A stretch of 64,000 nt of DNA from Corallococcus sp. EGB (GTDB lineage: Bacteria; Myxococcota; Myxococcia; Myxococcales; Myxococcaceae), in assembly GCF_019968905.1 (NCBI RefSeq), contig NZ_CP079946.1, positions 4,836,001 through 4,900,000 of the forward strand, read 5' to 3'. Within the stretch, counting starts at the first letter, position 1; the number at the start of each line of letters is the position of its first letter. Shown piece after piece: positions 12,060 through 19,678 of this stretch. The notes under the pieces are model-generated. The model did no database searches. It was not told where the DNA came from and saw only the letters and a list, made by a program, of their open reading frames with translations. Position numbers and translations under genes: made by a program.

Positions 12060-13259
12060 GTGAGCCATTCTTCGCCCGTGCCCCGCCCGCGTCCCGCGCT
12101 TCTCACGCTTGCCTACCTGGCGTTCATCAGCCTGGGGCTGCCGGACGCGGTGCTGGGCGTCGCGTGGCCGTCGCTCCGCACCACGTTCGGCCTGTCGCAG
12201 GCGGCGATGGGCGCCATCCTCGGGACGGCGGCGGTCACGTATTTCATTTCGGGTTTGCTCGCGGGCCGGCTGATGCGGGCCATGAACCTGGGGCTGTTGC
12301 TGGCGCTGAGCACCGGTTCGGTGGCGCTGGGGCTCACGGGATACTCCACGGTGCCCCTGTTCGGGCTGTTCCTGGCCGCCGCGTGCTTCATCGGCTTCGG
12401 ATCGGGGGCCATCGACTCCGCGCTCAACAACTACGCGGCCCAGAACTTCGGGCCCAAGCACATGGCCTGGTTGCATGCGGCCTATAGCGTGGGTGCCGCG
12501 CTGGGACCGGTGCTCATGACCGCGCTGCTCACGCGGGGGGCGCAATGGCGCACCGGCTATGCCGTGCTCGCGGTGGTACTGGGGACGTTGGCCCTGATGT
12601 TCCTGGTGATGCGCCGGCTGTGGGACACGCCGACGGGCGCGCCGGGGGAGCAGCCGCGAGCGGAGGTAACCGCCGCGCCCGCGACGGAGGCCGTGCGCCG
12701 GCCCCGGGTGTGGCTGCAGATCTTCACGTTCTTCTTCTACACAGGCGTGGAGGTGACGGCCGGCCAGTGGAGCTTCACGGTGCTCACCGAAGGCCGCGGC
12801 CTGCACACCGCCGCGGCGGGCACCTGCGTGAGCCTCTACTGGGGCAGCCTGCTGGTGGGCCGCGTCCTCTCCGGCTTCGTCGTCGAGCACATCGGACCGG
12901 TCCGGATGCTGCGCGCAAGTACCGTGCTGGCCGTGGTGGGCACGAGCCTGTTCGCCATCCCCGCCGTGCCGCCCGCGCTGGGGCTCTCGCTGCTGGGGCT
13001 CGCGCTGGCGCCCATCTTCCCGGCCCTGATGTCGGAGACGCCGCGCCGCGTGGGGCTGGATGTCTCCGCGCATGCCGTGGGCTTCCAGGTCAGCGCTGCA
13101 ACTGCGGGCGTGGCGGCCCTGCCGAGCCTCGCGGGCATCATCGCGGAGCGGTGGGGGCTCCAGTTCGTCGCCCCCTACATGCTCGGTGTGGCCGTCGTGC
13201 TGGCAGTGCTGCACGGCGTGCTGTCCGCCGTGGCGGACCGTCCTCAGCCGGCCCGGTGA
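12060..13259 (+). CDS. MFS transporter (FucP/YbjJ-like)
   Basis: About 399 residues with 12 predicted membrane segments. Blocks AYLAFISLGLPDAVLGVAWP, SGLLAGRLM, GSGAIDSALNNYAAQNF, WLHAAYSVGAALGPVL, and in the second half GRVLSGFVVEHIGPVRML and LGLALAPIFPALMSETPRR resemble the sugar/peptidoglycan-fragment MFS branch (FucP, YbjJ). A short hydrophilic loop splits the halves. The start is uncertain: no ATG precedes the first membrane segment, so GTG at 12060 was taken (12051 and 12078 are alternatives). It diverges from merR and is probably controlled through the repeat-bearing region. Confidence 0.8.
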   Translation: MSHSSPVPRPRPALLTLAYLAFISLGLPDAVLGVAWPSLRTTFGLSQAAMGAILGTAAVTYFISGLLAGRLMRAMNLGLLLALSTGSVALGLTGYSTVPLFGLFLAAACFIGFGSGAIDSALNNYAAQNFGPKHMAWLHAAYSVGAALGPVLMTALLTRGAQWRTGYAVLAVVLGTLALMFLVMRRLWDTPTGAPGEQPRAEVTAAPATEAVRRPRVWLQIFTFFFYTGVEVTAGQWSFTVLTEGRGLHTAAAGTCVSLYWGSLLVGRVLSGFVVEHIGPVRMLRASTVLAVVGTSLFAIPAVPPALGLSLLGLALAPIFPALMSETPRRVGLDVSAHAVGFQVSAATAGVAALPSLAGIIAERWGLQFVAPYMLGVAVVLAVLHGVLSAVADRPQPAR

Positions 13260-13268
13260 GCGCGGACC

Positions 13269-14642
13269 TCAAATCCCGGCCGGCAGGTCCGCGCTGCGCA
13301 GTGTCTTCGGGCCCTGTGCCGTCCACTGCGCCAGCCGCAGGGTCGCGCCCTGCTTGGAGGCCCGCGGCTCCACCTCCACGAAGGTGAAGCGCTGCTCCAG
13401 CTTCACGTGATTCTGCTTCGCGGAGTCGAGCGACGGGTTGGCCTGGAGCTCCGCCAGGTATTCTCCCCACTCATGGTCGGAGGACTCCGGGGCGGGGAGC
13501 CGCAGGAGGTAGATCCACGTGCCCGTGTTGGCGTAGAGGGGACCATTGCCCTCGTGCCAGCGGGCCGCGTGCGTGTGGCCCATCACCACCGCGTGCGGGT
13601 TGTACTTCTTGCCCAGGCGCGCGGTCTCCGCGAGCTCGTCCTTGCCGGGCTCCAGCGCGAAGTAGTCCGTGCCGCTCCTGCCCGCGACCGCGCGGTGCAG
13701 GCGTGCGTAGACCGCGAAGCCCGCCTTGGCCAGCTTCAACCGAGCGCGGCCCAGGGCCTCCGGATTGTCGAAGGCGCTGAGCTTCTCCGGGTCGAGCACC
13801 GACAGCAGCGCGTCCACTTCGTCATCCTTCAGGTCCACCCGCGCCAGGCTGCGCGCCAGGTGCAAGTCCGCGTCCGAACCGCCCACCACGTCCATCGGTT
13901 CGAGCGCGAAGGCCGGCGCAAGGCCCCGGTTCTCCATCAGGCGCCGGATGAGCGTGAGCGTCCCGGTCGTGAACAGGACCTTGAGCGCATCCGGTTTCAC
14001 GCCGAGCGCCACCATCACCGCGCCCTCGAAGTCCGGCTTGAGCAGGTCCATGTACCGCATGCGGTGCTGGTGCTTGAGCGGGTTGAGCAGCGTCTTCACC
14101 AGCACCGAGCCCGGCGGATAGCGGAAGCGGTTCGCCCGCTCCGGAGACAGGAGCGCGTCGTAGTCGATGCGGTTCGCCACGTCGGTGTGCTCGCCGTGCG
14201 TGACGAGCACGCGCGACCCGCCGACGTCCAGGTGAAGGGGCGCGGTGCCGTCCCGGAACTCCAGCCGTGAGGCCACGTCCCGGGGCTGGTCCAGCGCGGA
14301 GCGGATCACCTCCTGGACATCCGGCAGCGCCAGCTCCAGGTCGTGGTTGCCCACCACCATCGTCGCTCGGCCCCCGGCGGCCAGCACCCGCCCGAGCGCC
14401 TTCAACGCGGGCGCGGTCGCCGCGGAGGTCACCAACGCGCGCGCCTGCGCCAGCGTCCGCTGGGGATCCATCGTCAGCGGGTCGTCGTTGAGCAGGAAGT
14501 CGAAGCTGTCCCCGTTGAGGACGACGTGGGTGGGCGTGCGGGTGAAGGAGTCGAAGAGGGCGGGCAGCTCCGCGGCGCCCGCGAAGATGTCGTAGGGGCC
14601 TCCGTTGCCCAGGTGGAGATCACTGAGAATGAGCGTTCGCAT
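13269..14642 (-). CDS. Calcineurin-like metallophosphoesterase
   Basis: 457 residues. The five phosphoesterase motifs are visible: SDLHLGNGG (DxH), LNGDSFDFL (GD), VGNHDLE (GNHD), VLVTHGEH (H) and MGHTHAARW (GHTH). These bind two metal ions. A long middle insertion (about residues 190-340) is not part of the catalytic core. It is similar in outline to UDP-2,3-diacylglucosamine hydrolase but longer; the substrate is unknown. It follows the caspase-fold peptidase gene by 15 bp on the same strand, so the two are cotranscribed. It is convergent with the MFS gene (9 bp apart). Confidence 0.85.
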   Translation of the reverse strand: MRTLILSDLHLGNGGPYDIFAGAAELPALFDSFTRTPTHVVLNGDSFDFLLNDDPLTMDPQRTLAQARALVTSAATAPALKALGRVLAAGGRATMVVGNHDLELALPDVQEVIRSALDQPRDVASRLEFRDGTAPLHLDVGGSRVLVTHGEHTDVANRIDYDALLSPERANRFRYPPGSVLVKTLLNPLKHQHRMRYMDLLKPDFEGAVMVALGVKPDALKVLFTTGTLTLIRRLMENRGLAPAFALEPMDVVGGSDADLHLARSLARVDLKDDEVDALLSVLDPEKLSAFDNPEALGRARLKLAKAGFAVYARLHRAVAGRSGTDYFALEPGKDELAETARLGKKYNPHAVVMGHTHAARWHEGNGPLYANTGTWIYLLRLPAPESSDHEWGEYLAELQANPSLDSAKQNHVKLEQRFTFVEVEPRASKQGATLRLAQWTAQGPKTLRSADLPAGI

Positions 14643-14657
14643 CGGTCGATGCTCCTT

Positions 14658-16115
14658 TCAGGGAAGCGCCTGCAGTTCGGTGTGACGGATGCTCACGGCG
14701 GGATCGCCGAGCACCACGTAGTTGCGCGCGTCGTTGCGTTCGATCCACCGGTGCAGCAGCTCGCGCGGCGCGAGCTTGCCGTTGGACGTGTTCGCATCCA
14801 GGTGCGTCAGCAGGATGTTGTTGGCGGCGGAGAACCGGTCGCGGAAGTCTCGCAGCGCGTGGCCCACCGGCATGCCCGCCATGATCTTCCAGAGCGTGTT
14901 CTTGAAGGGGTGGATGGTGGTCTGGGTCATCTGCAAGGGCTTGATGGAGAAGCCCCAGGCCCGCTCCACGTGGCCAATCACCGCCAGCGCGCCCCCATTG
15001 GGGTGGGCCAGCATCCGCCGCGGCAGGGCCGCGATGAACGGCGCGCTCGCGAGCGCGTTGCCGCTGCGATCGGCAATGAGTGGGAACTCGTCGCGCTCGG
15101 GCGTGCCCATGCCGAAGCAGGCGAAGAAGAAGGCCACCAGGCCGTGGAGCCGCGCGTCGTCCTGGATGTCCGACGCCGCCACGTAGTGCGCGGGCGCCAT
15201 CGCGCCAAAGCCAGCCCAGTCCTGACTCAGCAGGGCGCCCTGTTTCGCGAGCTGGAGCGGATCACCCGCCTTGAAGCCCACCCCATGGGACGCGGTGAAG
15301 AGCACGGCCGGACGCGCCTCGCGGCCATGGAGCGCGGCGAGCAGCCACTCCCGGGTCGCGTCGTCCTCGAGGGCGTCGCGGCTGGTGAAGCGGACCTTCG
15401 CGGCGACCGCCTTTCCCGGCTGGGGCGGCTGATCCAGCGGCGCGCCGCGGGCCAGCGGCGCGACGAGGTTGTCCGCGCTGAGCTCGGTGGAGCGGTCCCC
15501 CGGGTGCTTGGGTCCCCACCAGCTCACCTGCCGGTGGTTGGGCACGGACGCGCCGGTCTCATACGCCACCACGCTGTCCGCGTAGCGCGCGTACTCCTCG
15601 GGCGTGTCGAAGGAGAGCCGGCCCACGGCGTACGACAGCGAGAGCGAGTGCTGCACGTCGAAGGGGATGACGTCAGGCCCGCCCACGAGCAGGAGGTAGT
15701 AGGGCACCACGCCAGGCTCCACGTCGCCGATGGGCGCTCCGTGCCGCTCCAGGAACTGATGCGCCGTCTCACCGGCCTGGTAGGTGAGGACGTGGAACCG
15801 CTCGGCCTCTACACGCGCGCGCCGGTGGGCGATGAGCGGCTCCAGGCTCTTGCGAATGTCCTCGGACATGGACGCAGGGAACACCACGCCCCAGCCGCAT
15901 TGGGTGTAGTCCTCCGGCGGCGCGTCGAAAGGAAGGCCGAAGCGGACGCCGATGGCGTGGAACTCGAGCCACTTCCTCCACGCCTCGTAGTACGCGGCCT
16001 CGCCCCGGGGTTCCGCCACCTCCGCGGCCGCCGGCAACGCGACGGGCGGCACCAGGTACTGCCCGGTGACACCGTCCATCCCGTTGAAGACCAGCGGATC
16101 ATCCAGAAGGGGCAT
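14658..16115 (-). CDS. Caspase/gingipain-fold cysteine peptidase-like protein (C25/CHAT type)
   Basis: 485 residues from the ATG with GGAG 6 nt upstream; GTG at 16136 would add seven residues. The order of motifs suits a caspase-haemoglobinase fold. YYLLLVGGPDVIPFDVQHSL and VGRLSFDTPEEYARY are gingipain-like. A His motif FTASHGVGF and a Cys motif FFACFGMGTP lie about 70 residues apart, and GGALAVIGHVERAWG follows. Both catalytic residues are present. It has no signal peptide, so it acts in the cytoplasm. It is first gene of a unit with the metallophosphoesterase and is divergent from the lanthipeptide genes. The target protein is unknown. Confidence 0.65.
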   Translation of the reverse strand: MPLLDDPLVFNGMDGVTGQYLVPPVALPAAAEVAEPRGEAAYYEAWRKWLEFHAIGVRFGLPFDAPPEDYTQCGWGVVFPASMSEDIRKSLEPLIAHRRARVEAERFHVLTYQAGETAHQFLERHGAPIGDVEPGVVPYYLLLVGGPDVIPFDVQHSLSLSYAVGRLSFDTPEEYARYADSVVAYETGASVPNHRQVSWWGPKHPGDRSTELSADNLVAPLARGAPLDQPPQPGKAVAAKVRFTSRDALEDDATREWLLAALHGREARPAVLFTASHGVGFKAGDPLQLAKQGALLSQDWAGFGAMAPAHYVAASDIQDDARLHGLVAFFFACFGMGTPERDEFPLIADRSGNALASAPFIAALPRRMLAHPNGGALAVIGHVERAWGFSIKPLQMTQTTIHPFKNTLWKIMAGMPVGHALRDFRDRFSAANNILLTHLDANTSNGKLAPRELLHRWIERNDARNYVVLGDPAVSIRHTELQALP

Positions 16116-16480
16116 GGGTCGCTCCACGTTCACCACCTCCCGGACATCCTAGACGTCACCGCCGACGCGGAAAGAGCGGACAGGGGGCTGGCTGTCTGGC
16201 CCTCGGCGTTCAAGGGGGCACGGTGTCGCGTGGCGGGCTCACGCTCCGACTCCCGGGATGACATGTCGCCGGGTCCACGGTCTCCTCGCCCCCGAGGACA
16301 GGGACCCGCTGTTTCGTGGTGGCAATCCCTTATGTCCCGTTCGCGCCCCGGTGGACTTGTGGCGTATGGATACAAACCCTTGCGGGGTGTCTGGCGTTGA
16401 CCTGTTGCGTCTGGCATTGCAGGGCGTGTCTGTGTTCACGTCCGCTCTGCGTCCGGCGCGCATGGCACCCCTCGCCATGT

Positions 16481-16506: not shown

Positions 16507-16704
16507 ATGACGAAGCAGGCCTCGGTCCAGGATGTGGTGCAGGGCTGGCTGTCCGGTGATGAGGAGTCCCATGGGATGACGAACCCGGCGGGCCCGGTGT
16601 TCGTCGGAGGTACGAGCACGGAGAAGGCGCTCACGGAGTCCAACCTGGTGGCGGACACAGGCTGCAGCAGCTGCACCGCGTCCACCACCGCGTTCTGCTG
16701 TTGA
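16507..16704 (+). CDS. lanA: Class II lanthipeptide precursor peptide
   Basis: 65 residues, with GGAG 7 nt before the ATG. The leader starts MTKQASVQDVVQGWLSGDEE, then NPAGPVFVGG. The C-terminus TGCSSCTASTTAFCC is rich in Cys, Ser and Thr, as needed for (methyl)lanthionine rings: four Cys at positions 53, 56, 64 and 65, with Thr/Ser at 51, 54, 55, 57 and 59-61. Cleavage after the GG at 34-35 or nearer position 50 would give a 30- or about 15-residue core; which applies cannot be told. The LanM gene follows immediately on the same strand, which supports the call. It is short and easily missed by gene finders. Confidence 0.85.
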   Translation: MTKQASVQDVVQGWLSGDEESHGMTNPAGPVFVGGTSTEKALTESNLVADTGCSSCTASTTAFCC

Positions 16705-16738
16705 GCCGTCCCGGACGTCTTCCGTCCGTCTGAAGCAC

Positions 16739-16768
16739 CCCTCCGGCGCCGTGCCCCGTGCCGGAGGG
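16739..16768 (+). terminator. Hairpin between lanA and lanM
   Basis: Perfect 9-bp stem CCCTCCGGC / GCCGGAGGG with a 12-nt loop, then TCTTCCCCC. Such a stem between precursor and enzyme genes typically acts as a partial terminator or 3' stabiliser, so that more precursor than enzyme is made (inference). Confidence 0.5.
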
Positions 16769-16813
16769 TCTTCCCCCGTTGCCCCGCTTCGGTCCCCCCC
16801 AGGGAGCCCCTCC

Positions 16814-19678
16814 ATGGTCCACGAGGAAGCGTCGATGGCCGCCGAAGTCCCTCCGGAGGGATGGCTCGCGCGCCCCGTGAACGTCCTGCTGACGCCGCAC
16901 CTGGACTCGCTGTCGGAACGGCTCAGGCGAATCCAGGGCCTCTCTTCCGCCGAGCGCGAGGTGGTGGCGGCCTCGGCCCGGGCAATGCTGGGCTTCAGCG
17001 CGCAGCTCAAGCTCAACCGCGTGCTCCTTCTGGAGTTGCATGCCGCGTCGTTGGAGGGACGGCTCGACGCCGAGGACGCGTCAGGGCGGTGGGGCCAGTT
17101 CCTCGAGCTCGCCTGTACGTCTGATTTCCATGCGCACCTGCGTGGACGCTATCCGCCGCTCCTGGATCGGCTGGCGACATTGGGGCGGCTCCAGACCCAG
17201 GCGGTGCTGCGGCTGGCGGAGCGGTTCGTCGCGGACCGCGAGTTCCTGTCCGAGCTGCCGGGGCGTCCTCGCGGCGAGCTGAAGCGCCTGCGGCTGGGCG
17301 AGGGGGATGCCCACCGGGGCGGTCAGACGGTGGCGCTCCTGGACCTGGAAGAGGGCACGGTGCTCTACAAGCCCCGGTGCATGCGCGTGGATCGCGCGCT
17401 GGAGGGGCTGCTCGCGCGGCTGCTCGCCCGGGAGGACGCGGGCACGCGCATCCGCGTGCCGGCGGTGCTGGTGCGCGCGGGCCATGGCTGGGCGGAGTTC
17501 GTGGAGCACCGCTTTTGCGAGGGCAGGGGCGAGCTCGCGCGCTTCTACCGGAACCTGGGCCACTGGCTCGCGGTGATGCGCCTGCTGGGCGGCACGGACC
17601 TGCACTCGGAGAACCTCATCGCGCATGGGCCGGTGCCCGTGGTGGTGGACGTGGAGAGCCTCTTCACTCCCGATCCTCCCGTGCCTCCGGCCGAGCGCGG
17701 TCTGGCGGTGGATCTGGCCGCGAAGGCCATCCGGGGCACCGTCCTGCGCACGGGCCTGCTCCCCGTGCGCAGCGGAGGCCCGGGCCTGGGCGGCCTGGAC
17801 ATCTCCGCCGCGGGATCGCTGCCGGGGCAGCAGCCGCGCATCCCGGCTCCGCTCATCGTCGACGGTGGGACGGACGGCGCGCGGCTGGGCATGACGCTGA
17901 TGGAGCGCCCGATGGCGAAGAACCACCCAAGCCCGGACCCCGTGCTCGCGCTGCATTGGGATCAGATCGTGGAGGGGTTCCACGAGCTCACCGCGCGGAT
18001 GCAGGCGCTGGACGCGCGCGGCGGATTGCGCCCGCTGCTGGAGCCGTTCACGGGCGCGGTGGTCCGGCGCATCCTGCGGCCCACGCAGACCTATGCGGAG
18101 CTGCTGCGCATGCTCTGGCATCCGGCCTCCCTGTACGACGCGCCCAGGGCCCACTCGAGGGCGCGGGAGGTGATGCGGAAGAACGCGGACGTCACCCCCG
18201 GCGCGCCCTCCGCGCCGCCCGTCATCGACGAGGAGCTCGCCGACCTGTGCGTGGGCGACATCCCCGTCTTCACCCAGCCCGTGACCCGGAGCGTGATCGA
18301 CGCCTCGGTGGAGGCGTGGCGCTCCGTGGACGTGCCCCTGGAGGAGATGACCATCCAGAGCACGCTGATCAGCGCCTACCTCAACGAGAAGACCGTGCCT
18401 CCGCGCGTCCTCGCGCCGGCCACCCCCGCGCGCCGGGGGCGCCTGGACTCGCGGCGCCGGGCACAGCTGTCCAAGCTGGTCCGCCGCGTGTGCGACGCGG
18501 CCGTGAAGGGTCCGGACGGGACGGTGACGTGGATCAGCCCGGTGCTCGCTGAACATGGCTGGGCGGTGCGGCCCCTCTCCGCCGAGCACTACAGCGGGCA
18601 GGGCGGCGTCGCGGTGGTGCTGGCCCAGTACCTGCGCGAGGTCCAGCAGGGCCGCGCGGACGAAGTCGAGGGGCTGCAGGCGCTGCTGGACGGCACGCTC
18701 GCGGTGCTGCGCGCCACGGAGGACCGCGTGCCGGTGAAGCAACCGGGAGGCTTCTCAGGGCTCGCGTCGCAGGTGTGGATCTGGTCCACGCTGCATGACC
18801 TGGACATCGTTCCGGGGGCGTTGGAGCGGGCCCGCGAGCGCGCGGCGGCGCTGACGCCCCAGGTGCTGGACGCGGATGGACTCCTCGAGGTGCTGGGCGG
18901 CGTGGCGGGCGTCATCGTCCCGCTGCTCAACCTGGTGGACCAGACGGGCGAGCCGAAGTGGCTGGACGTCGCGGTGCACGCGGGACGGCGGCTGGAGGAC
19001 ACGGCGCGCGGCGTGGCGGGGGACGCGCGCTGGTCCACGTCGATGTTCCCGGAGCCCATCGGCGGCTTCGCGCACGGCGTGGCGGGCATCGGCTGGGCGT
19101 TGGCGCGGCTGGGCCTGAGCGCGGCGGGGACGGCGGCCGACCGGCGACGGTGGCGCAGCCTGTCCGAGCGCGCCTTCGACTTCGTGGACGGGCTCTACCG
19201 GCAGGAGGCGGGCAACTGGACGGACCTCCGCCGCCCGGACGCCACGGATCAGCTGACGAGCTGGTGCCACGGGAGCACGGGCATTGGCCTCGCGGCCGCG
19301 GACCTCTTCGTGCGCTTCGGCGCGACGCGCTACGGGGAGATGCTCCAGCGAGCCCGCAACGCGGCCGTGCGCGAGGGCTTCGGCTGGACCCACACCCTGT
19401 GCCACGGCGACCTGGGGTTGTGGGAGCTGCTGGAGACGGCGCGGCGGTTGTCGTCGGAGCCGCTCGCGCCGGATCGGGAGACGCTGGACGCGGAGCTCAT
19501 CTCCGGCCTGGAGGTGCGCGGCCCGGTGGCGGGGCTGGCTCGCGACGCCTTCTCTCCCGGGTGGATGGCGGGGCTGGGCGGCGTCATCCACACGCTCCTG
19601 CGCATGCACCCGGAGAGCCGGCTCGCGTCGCCACTGCTGCTGGGACGCGCGCCAGACATGGACCCGGATGCGTTCTGA
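16814..19678 (+). CDS. lanM: Class II lanthipeptide synthetase LanM
   Basis: 954 residues. The N-terminal kinase-like dehydratase (DUF4135) phosphorylates and eliminates Ser/Thr. It has K186 in LYKPR, the motif DxHxxN in GGTDLHSENL (D262, H264, N267), and VVDVESLF. The C-terminal LanC-like cyclase adds Cys thiols to the dehydro residues and keeps its zinc ligands C818 (SWCHGSTG) and C863/H864 (LCHGDLG). All catalytic motifs seen are intact, so the enzyme should be active. Start at the ATG with AGGGAG 8 nt upstream; ATG at 16834 is an alternative. No LanT transporter, protease domain or immunity gene follows; the next gene is a convergent helicase 2 nt away. Confidence 0.95.
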   Translation: MVHEEASMAAEVPPEGWLARPVNVLLTPHLDSLSERLRRIQGLSSAEREVVAASARAMLGFSAQLKLNRVLLLELHAASLEGRLDAEDASGRWGQFLELACTSDFHAHLRGRYPPLLDRLATLGRLQTQAVLRLAERFVADREFLSELPGRPRGELKRLRLGEGDAHRGGQTVALLDLEEGTVLYKPRCMRVDRALEGLLARLLAREDAGTRIRVPAVLVRAGHGWAEFVEHRFCEGRGELARFYRNLGHWLAVMRLLGGTDLHSENLIAHGPVPVVVDVESLFTPDPPVPPAERGLAVDLAAKAIRGTVLRTGLLPVRSGGPGLGGLDISAAGSLPGQQPRIPAPLIVDGGTDGARLGMTLMERPMAKNHPSPDPVLALHWDQIVEGFHELTARMQALDARGGLRPLLEPFTGAVVRRILRPTQTYAELLRMLWHPASLYDAPRAHSRAREVMRKNADVTPGAPSAPPVIDEELADLCVGDIPVFTQPVTRSVIDASVEAWRSVDVPLEEMTIQSTLISAYLNEKTVPPRVLAPATPARRGRLDSRRRAQLSKLVRRVCDAAVKGPDGTVTWISPVLAEHGWAVRPLSAEHYSGQGGVAVVLAQYLREVQQGRADEVEGLQALLDGTLAVLRATEDRVPVKQPGGFSGLASQVWIWSTLHDLDIVPGALERARERAAALTPQVLDADGLLEVLGGVAGVIVPLLNLVDQTGEPKWLDVAVHAGRRLEDTARGVAGDARWSTSMFPEPIGGFAHGVAGIGWALARLGLSAAGTAADRRRWRSLSERAFDFVDGLYRQEAGNWTDLRRPDATDQLTSWCHGSTGIGLAAADLFVRFGATRYGEMLQRARNAAVREGFGWTHTLCHGDLGLWELLETARRLSSEPLAPDRETLDAELISGLEVRGPVAGLARDAFSPGWMAGLGGVIHTLLRMHPESRLASPLLLGRAPDMDPDAF

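Follow-up and report, generated by a model that had tools for sequence, protein, structure and literature searches.

The lanA-lanM locus

Corallococcus is a predatory soil bacterium, and our subject is a short two-gene locus in the 9.43-Mb, single-contig genome of Corallococcus sp. EGB. It lies within a 64,000-nucleotide stretch that we call the window (NZ_CP079946.1, positions 4,836,001 to 4,900,000; coordinates below count from its first base). The first gene, lanA (16507..16704, + strand), encodes a precursor of 65 amino acids ending in TGCSSCTASTTAFCC, and the second, lanM (16814..19678, + strand), encodes a class II lanthipeptide synthetase of 954 amino acids counted from the ATG, in an open frame that begins with GTG at 16751. 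The original prediction for this DNA had placed a precursor gene of 65 codons ahead of LanM, and rightly so; its further claim, that the core matches no lantibiotic already described, is not supported as worded, since the precursor is a member of DUF6229 whose predicted ring residues are spaced as in rhodanocin.

Scanned with PF19740 (DUF6229, gathering cut-off 25), the precursor reaches 85.9 bits, its residues 6-65 covering positions 3-62 of the 62 in the profile. Together with a core pattern common to 32 distinct precursors, this score argues that lanA is not a chance open reading frame; the gene has a family after all, under an uninformative Pfam name. None of the NCBIfam lantibiotic precursor models matches the lanA product, the sole match being a chance one to metK (E 0.055), and a mersacidin/lichenicidin-type assignment was dropped because no curated model of that set matches. 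The five named relatives of the precursor that were retrieved are all from Corallococcus.

LanM reaches 484.8 bits with TIGR03897 (cut-off 304), and its domains are recognized by PF13575 (318.3 bits) and PF05147 (124.4 bits). Residues K186, D262, H264 and N267, together with C818, C863 and H864, which we take to be the kinase/lyase residues and the zinc ligands respectively, are all found where they had been predicted when numbered from the ATG at 16814; D279, R422 and T424 are kept as well. Twelve catalytic, zinc or motif residues are identical in 27/27 DUF6229-linked LanMs compared, from a total of 32 loci (three of these sequences were slightly trimmed, and four LanMs on other contigs and a fragment from G146 were left out). 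By sequence, lanA-lanM is a genuine class II lanthipeptide pair, as had been proposed; the domain and family matches, the unbroken set of catalytic residues, the joint occurrence of the two genes and their synteny all bear this out.

Distribution, synteny and phylogeny

We gathered 32 loci with 32 distinct precursors, 30 of them myxobacterial (the window's own included) and two on Embleya plasmids, these being the only records matched among the plasmids searched; the viral contigs searched gave no match. Three further candidates (L004, L020 and L021) scored below the family cut-off, had no such core, and were rejected. Within the phylum, DUF6229 was found in 29 of the 195 genomes searched, in 3 of 90 genera. 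LanMs close to that of the window (E <= 1e-150) occur in 28 of 96 genomes of the family, and all 28 are among those 29; in the remaining one, G146, LanM is cut by a contig end. A lanM kept without the precursor, named beforehand as a sign against the pair, was not seen, the precursor being present in 28/28 of the close-LanM genomes (of 96).

LanM lies downstream on the same contig in 28/32 loci, shortened in one of them by the contig end; the other four contigs stop just after lanA, and a close LanM sits on another contig of those genomes. In the LanM tree, the 16 enzymes of core type A that were included (types are defined below) cluster together (98/99), and so, separately, do the nine from myxobacterial type-B loci (100/100); branches are long and the placement of Embleya is unsure.

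The lanAM pair is carried by 15 of the 16 Corallococcus genomes searched. The sixteenth, the draft G009, retains the two flanks, but the ~8.9 kb between them lack lanAM and instead hold a gene with a CHAT domain (PF12770) and a large one whose AAA/NACHT matches fall short of the Pfam cut-offs. Because the same two genes are found at the site in G013 and G007, where they lie between lanA and a peptidase C25-like gene, we take G009 to have lost the pair from a site that varies between genomes.

Core types and ring-residue spacing

The leader spans approximately residues 1-50 and the minimal predicted core is T51-C65, with a putative border between them. A glycine pair (GG, residues 34-35; 16606..16611, + strand) in the leader motif NPAGPxFVGG is a candidate cleavage site; it is present in 32/32 precursors, is invariant across the 10 aligned, and in lanA sits 18 residues ahead of the first core Cys. 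All 32 cores end in C-[ST]-[AG]-[S/C]-x4-C-C, with the terminal Cys pair (C64-C65 in lanA; 16696..16701, + strand) in every one. Ahead of this shared end, two core types can be told apart: type A (n = 20), with T-x-C-S-x-C, and type B (n = 12), with C-G-T-x-C. If positions are numbered relative to the second Cys (C56 = 0), 20/20 type-A cores share T at -5, C at -3, S at -2, C at 0, [ST] at +1 and C at +8 and +9, and 17/20 also have S at +3, which can be written as T-x-C-x-x-C-[ST]-x-S. The cores of genus g8 (L042, L047, L052) end in S-x-x-S-Y-C-C, which we take to be reminiscent of the C-terminus of epidermin-type class I lantibiotics.

A DUF6229 member of Dyella sp. 333MFSha (LanII), made in E. 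coli, received four dehydrations and three rings; the authors suggested calling such peptides rhodanocins and made the case that the members of DUF6229 are precursors of lanthipeptides, among which two or more ring patterns occur (PMC9576775). The links given there are Thr6-Cys11, Cys8-Ser14 and Thr12-Cys23 (PMC9576775). Recast as offsets these are -5/0, -3/+3 and +1/+12, and five of the six positions correspond to T51, C53, C56, T57 and S59 of the lanA product, whose scaffold T51-x-C53-S54-x-C56-T57-x-S59 (16657..16683, + strand) thus has the rhodanocin spacing. A shuffled whole precursor regains the motif in 0.12% of trials; because rhodanocin and lanA share one family, the match is more telling than shuffle rates suggest.

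Loop variation and a Ser-to-Cys change

Between scaffold and terminal Cys pair lies a fast-changing loop, residues 60-63 (16684..16695, + strand), which shows the highest proportion of nonsynonymous differences (pN) of 60 four-codon windows (pN 0.459; synonymous pS 0.318); beyond the loop, the N-terminal residues 3-9 are the most variable. The mean pairwise ratio of nonsynonymous to synonymous change (dN/dS) for 15 Corallococcus lanA genes is 0.44 across the whole gene, but 0.22 within T51-S59 and 1.7 in the loop at residues 60-63; as mean pairwise counts over related sequences these values are indicative only, and on that footing the loop appears to be diversifying.

Three Corallococcus (G005, G015 and G002) have Cys instead of Ser at +3. 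From T-5 onward their cores hold five Cys and three Ser/Thr, so that at most three thioethers can form, and the residues fit three thioethers plus one C-3/C+3 disulfide. If the predicted topology is right, this disulfide would replace a lanthionine at the same positions, with all Cys used. The Ser-to-Cys change was probably a single event, since the LanMs of G005 and G015 fall in the same clade (100/99); G002 was not part of the tree.

Intergenic hairpin and upstream elements

The 91-nt stretch between lanA and lanM folds with a z-score of -4.42 (0/200 shuffles as good) and contains a hairpin with an 11-bp stem (16739..16768, + strand), a candidate attenuator. Folding covered ten of the 20 intergenic stretches of type A, their ends chosen by hand: nine with a visible stem and one, that of G005, without. 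The nine gave z-scores from -1.66 (G008) to -4.59, with stem sequences unlike between genera; myxobacterial type-B loci have almost no gap between lanA and lanM. Four draft assemblies (L049, L053, L056, L060) break within ~130 bases after lanA, the ends of L053 and L056 apparently being palindromes, and a strong hairpin might cause such breaks. The contig ends of G007 and G004 look like palindromes of their own lanA.

Upstream of lanA, alignment of 15 Corallococcus upstream regions revealed a conserved box, tggcaatcccttatgtc (16320..16336, + strand), a possible promoter element, and a second conserved block at 16407-16419. A sigma-54 reading of these boxes was dropped, the spacing being off by eye against the consensus.

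Export, leader removal and neighbouring genes

It had been noted in advance that no transporter, leader protease or immunity gene stands beside the pair. Neither a C39 peptidase nor a homologue of the type-B ABC exporter (E <= 1e-20) was matched in the 64-kb window, which upholds that statement for these two, other transporter types and immunity genes not having been searched; the Pfam/NCBIfam scans took in the nearest neighbours of the pair only. Genes for export and cleavage may thus lie elsewhere.

In type-B myxobacterial loci (five of ten examined), LanM is followed in 5/5 by an open reading frame of ~600 amino acids and then in 4/5 by one of 480-500. Pfam identifies this gene pair in G145 as an ABC exporter, in which no C39 domain is matched, and a FAD/BBE oxidase; the FAD_binding_4/BBE oxidase gene adjoins the DUF6229-LanM-ABC genes at L061 ~13035-14478. 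Homologues of both are found in G134 and G131, the G131 oxidase being split over two frames, and a literature search for lanthipeptides with LanM and a berberine bridge oxidase found no paper. Candidates for orthologues of this exporter and oxidase elsewhere in the genome that holds the window were rejected, the best matches being 33% and 32-35% identical, as in the other genomes searched. In each of the two Embleya loci, an ABC-transporter-like open reading frame lies beside LanM on the opposite strand, and in G135, one of five type-A loci from other genera, two ABC matches lie upstream of lanA at a distance of 3.5-6.2 kb. For the neighbours of type-A loci outside Corallococcus, for the ABC genes of Embleya and for most genes of type-B loci, the assignments come from inspecting translations by eye.

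The same genome carries a second class II cluster (L071 7932-16961; C1 ~7102931-7111960), with a 76-amino-acid GG-leader precursor, LanM2 (34% identical), a C39-type LanT and, by eye, a membrane-fusion-like gene. Could this LanT mature and export the lanA peptide in trans? It is the only C39 match in the genome (E <= 0.001), it comes from a cluster that owns a precursor and a LanM, and the GG pair of the DUF6229 leaders is fully conserved. However, the second precursor carries a typical GG, as ELLDVVGG directly ahead of its core, unlike lanA with its distant GG in another context, and the type-B exporter that was scanned has no C39 match. The C39 protease LahT150, moreover, failed to cut rhodanocin despite a possible double-Gly motif (PMC9576775). 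We consider such maturation in trans unlikely.

Divergent from lanA lies a peptidase C25-like gene (14658..16136, - strand; PF01364 37.1 bits, cut-off 23) with His284/Cys340, a low-probability candidate for removing the leader by cutting after D50 or N50. Of 16 orthologues found, 13 were checked, the one in the window among them, and all of these keep the His/Cys pair; residue 50 is D or N in 15/15 Corallococcus and in 0/5 other type-A members, a pattern that is, however, confounded with ancestry. The gene persists in G009, in which lanA was not found, and was therefore dropped as a dedicated protease; it lies ~9 kb from lanA in G013 and G007, other genera have only C25 paralogues of 29-36% identity, and at E <= 1e-20 no match turns up in several of the genomes with lanAM, including G131. 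A role in leader removal is very unlikely. A CHAT-domain gene and a 1700-amino-acid STAND-like gene (AAA/NACHT below cut-off) adjoin the lanAM site in L104 (7697-15984, G009), L049 and L056; with CHAT genes in three Corallococcus and the C25-like neighbour in the window, the site seems to gather caspase-fold-like genes.

Proposed pathway

We assign a probability of about 0.75 to the reading that lanA and lanM make up a minimal class II lanthipeptide pathway. The unit probably makes a small ring-locked peptide and, we infer, works like rhodanocin biosynthesis. As in the LanM family at large, LanM would bind the conserved leader and phosphorylate and eliminate core Ser/Thr, and its zinc domain would add the Cys thiols. 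The rings predicted from the rhodanocin spacing are T51-C56, a reversed C53-S59, and T57 to C64 or C65; there are four conserved Ser/Thr and four Cys, and S54 possibly serves the last Cys. Residues 60-63 would then be a variable, perhaps target-facing loop. The hairpin may lead to more lanA than lanM being transcribed, its likeliest use being as an attenuator that holds lanM below the level of lanA. As the weakest part of the scheme, export and leader removal would be performed by genes elsewhere, and the product would most likely be a secreted antagonistic or signalling peptide.

A more elaborate proposal is that type A is an interlocked thioether scaffold presenting a diversifying four-residue loop, with its lanthionine (C-3/S+3) swapped for a disulfide (C-3/C+3) by the Ser-to-Cys change, the exporterless peptide acting in recognition or antagonism among related myxobacteria; as a whole, this is speculative and rather unlikely.

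Several observations weigh against the pathway reading and its rhodanocin model. The pair is dispensable, being absent from one of 16 Corallococcus genomes (the draft G009). The rhodanocin mapping was drawn from residue numbers in the paper's text, the sequences not being aligned, and the tails differ; type B breaks the spacing, with C at -4 in 12/32, and 2.1% of shuffles of the 15-residue core regain the motif. Nor is the hairpin present throughout: the short, stemless gap of G005 has a z-score of 0.34, as by chance, and that of G008 is weak, 12/200 shuffles being as good.

If instead the cysteines form disulfides or bind metal, with LanM modifying little or nothing, the CxxC and CC motifs would be accounted for, along with the three relatives that have more Cys than core Ser/Thr; but the Ser/Thr positions are nearly as conserved as the Cys, and an intact LanM is co-inherited, which makes this highly improbable. 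That the locus is a decaying, functionless remnant is scarcely credible, bare as its two genes are and missing as they are from G009, given the low lanA dN/dS, overall and on the scaffold, and the invariance of the LanM catalytic residues.

Under the pathway reading, the locus represents a new, myxobacterial branch of a known lanthipeptide family. The characterised member of that family is an inhibitor of Klebsiella pneumoniae, although the form tested, which was not the native one, acted weakly (126 uM; PMC9576775). New here are the two core types among 32 precursors, the type-A ring prediction, the Ser-to-Cys change, the fast-varying residues 60-63 and the lanA-lanM hairpin. The ring topology is a concrete, testable prediction, and the type-A precursors offer a natural series of loop variants with a possible thioether-to-disulfide swap on one scaffold. 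The locus also speaks for renaming DUF6229 as a family of lanthipeptide precursors, which in the genomes seen comprises two core types.

Comparison with known systems

Homologues of the window LanM with solved structures are LicM2 (PDB 6st5) and CylM (5dzt), which are presumably parts of other lantibiotic systems. The DUF6229 family is known, and this myxobacterial branch of it looks uncharacterised: a literature search, with RiPP (ribosomally synthesised and post-translationally modified peptide) databases outside its range, found no report of a Corallococcus DUF6229 peptide or of the exact core. In C. coralloides, antiSMASH detected lanthipeptide clusters, and the window locus may be among those listed in Table S1 of that study (PMC10609524). 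Another study lists a cluster of a different type in C. coralloides, in which LanT is accompanied by LanB and LanC (PMC3951391).

Among Lysobacter class II precursors, which fall into six similarity families, 21 of 27 unique ones are DUF6229 proteins (PMC11451712); they are like the window locus in Pfam family and in belonging to class II clusters. Type B (g41 and the Embleya plasmids) shares with the window locus the precursor family, the core end C[ST]GSxxxxCC and a LanM ~44-49% identical, but differs in having C-x3-C where type A has C-x2-C, an ABC-exporter gene adjoining LanM and, in the g41 loci, a FAD/BBE oxidase.

The likeness to rhodanocin (PMC9576775) extends to the DUF6229 precursor, the class II LanM, the T-x-C-x-x-C-T-x-S spacing (from published residue numbers) and a possible double-Gly leader motif. 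The tails differ: rhodanocin has one Cys at +12 and a dehydrobutyrine at +7, whereas the window core has F63 at +7, C64/C65 at +8/+9 and a variable four-residue loop. Because of this tail, the lanA product is not filed as a rhodanocin, although by sequence it is a DUF6229 precursor paired with a LanM.

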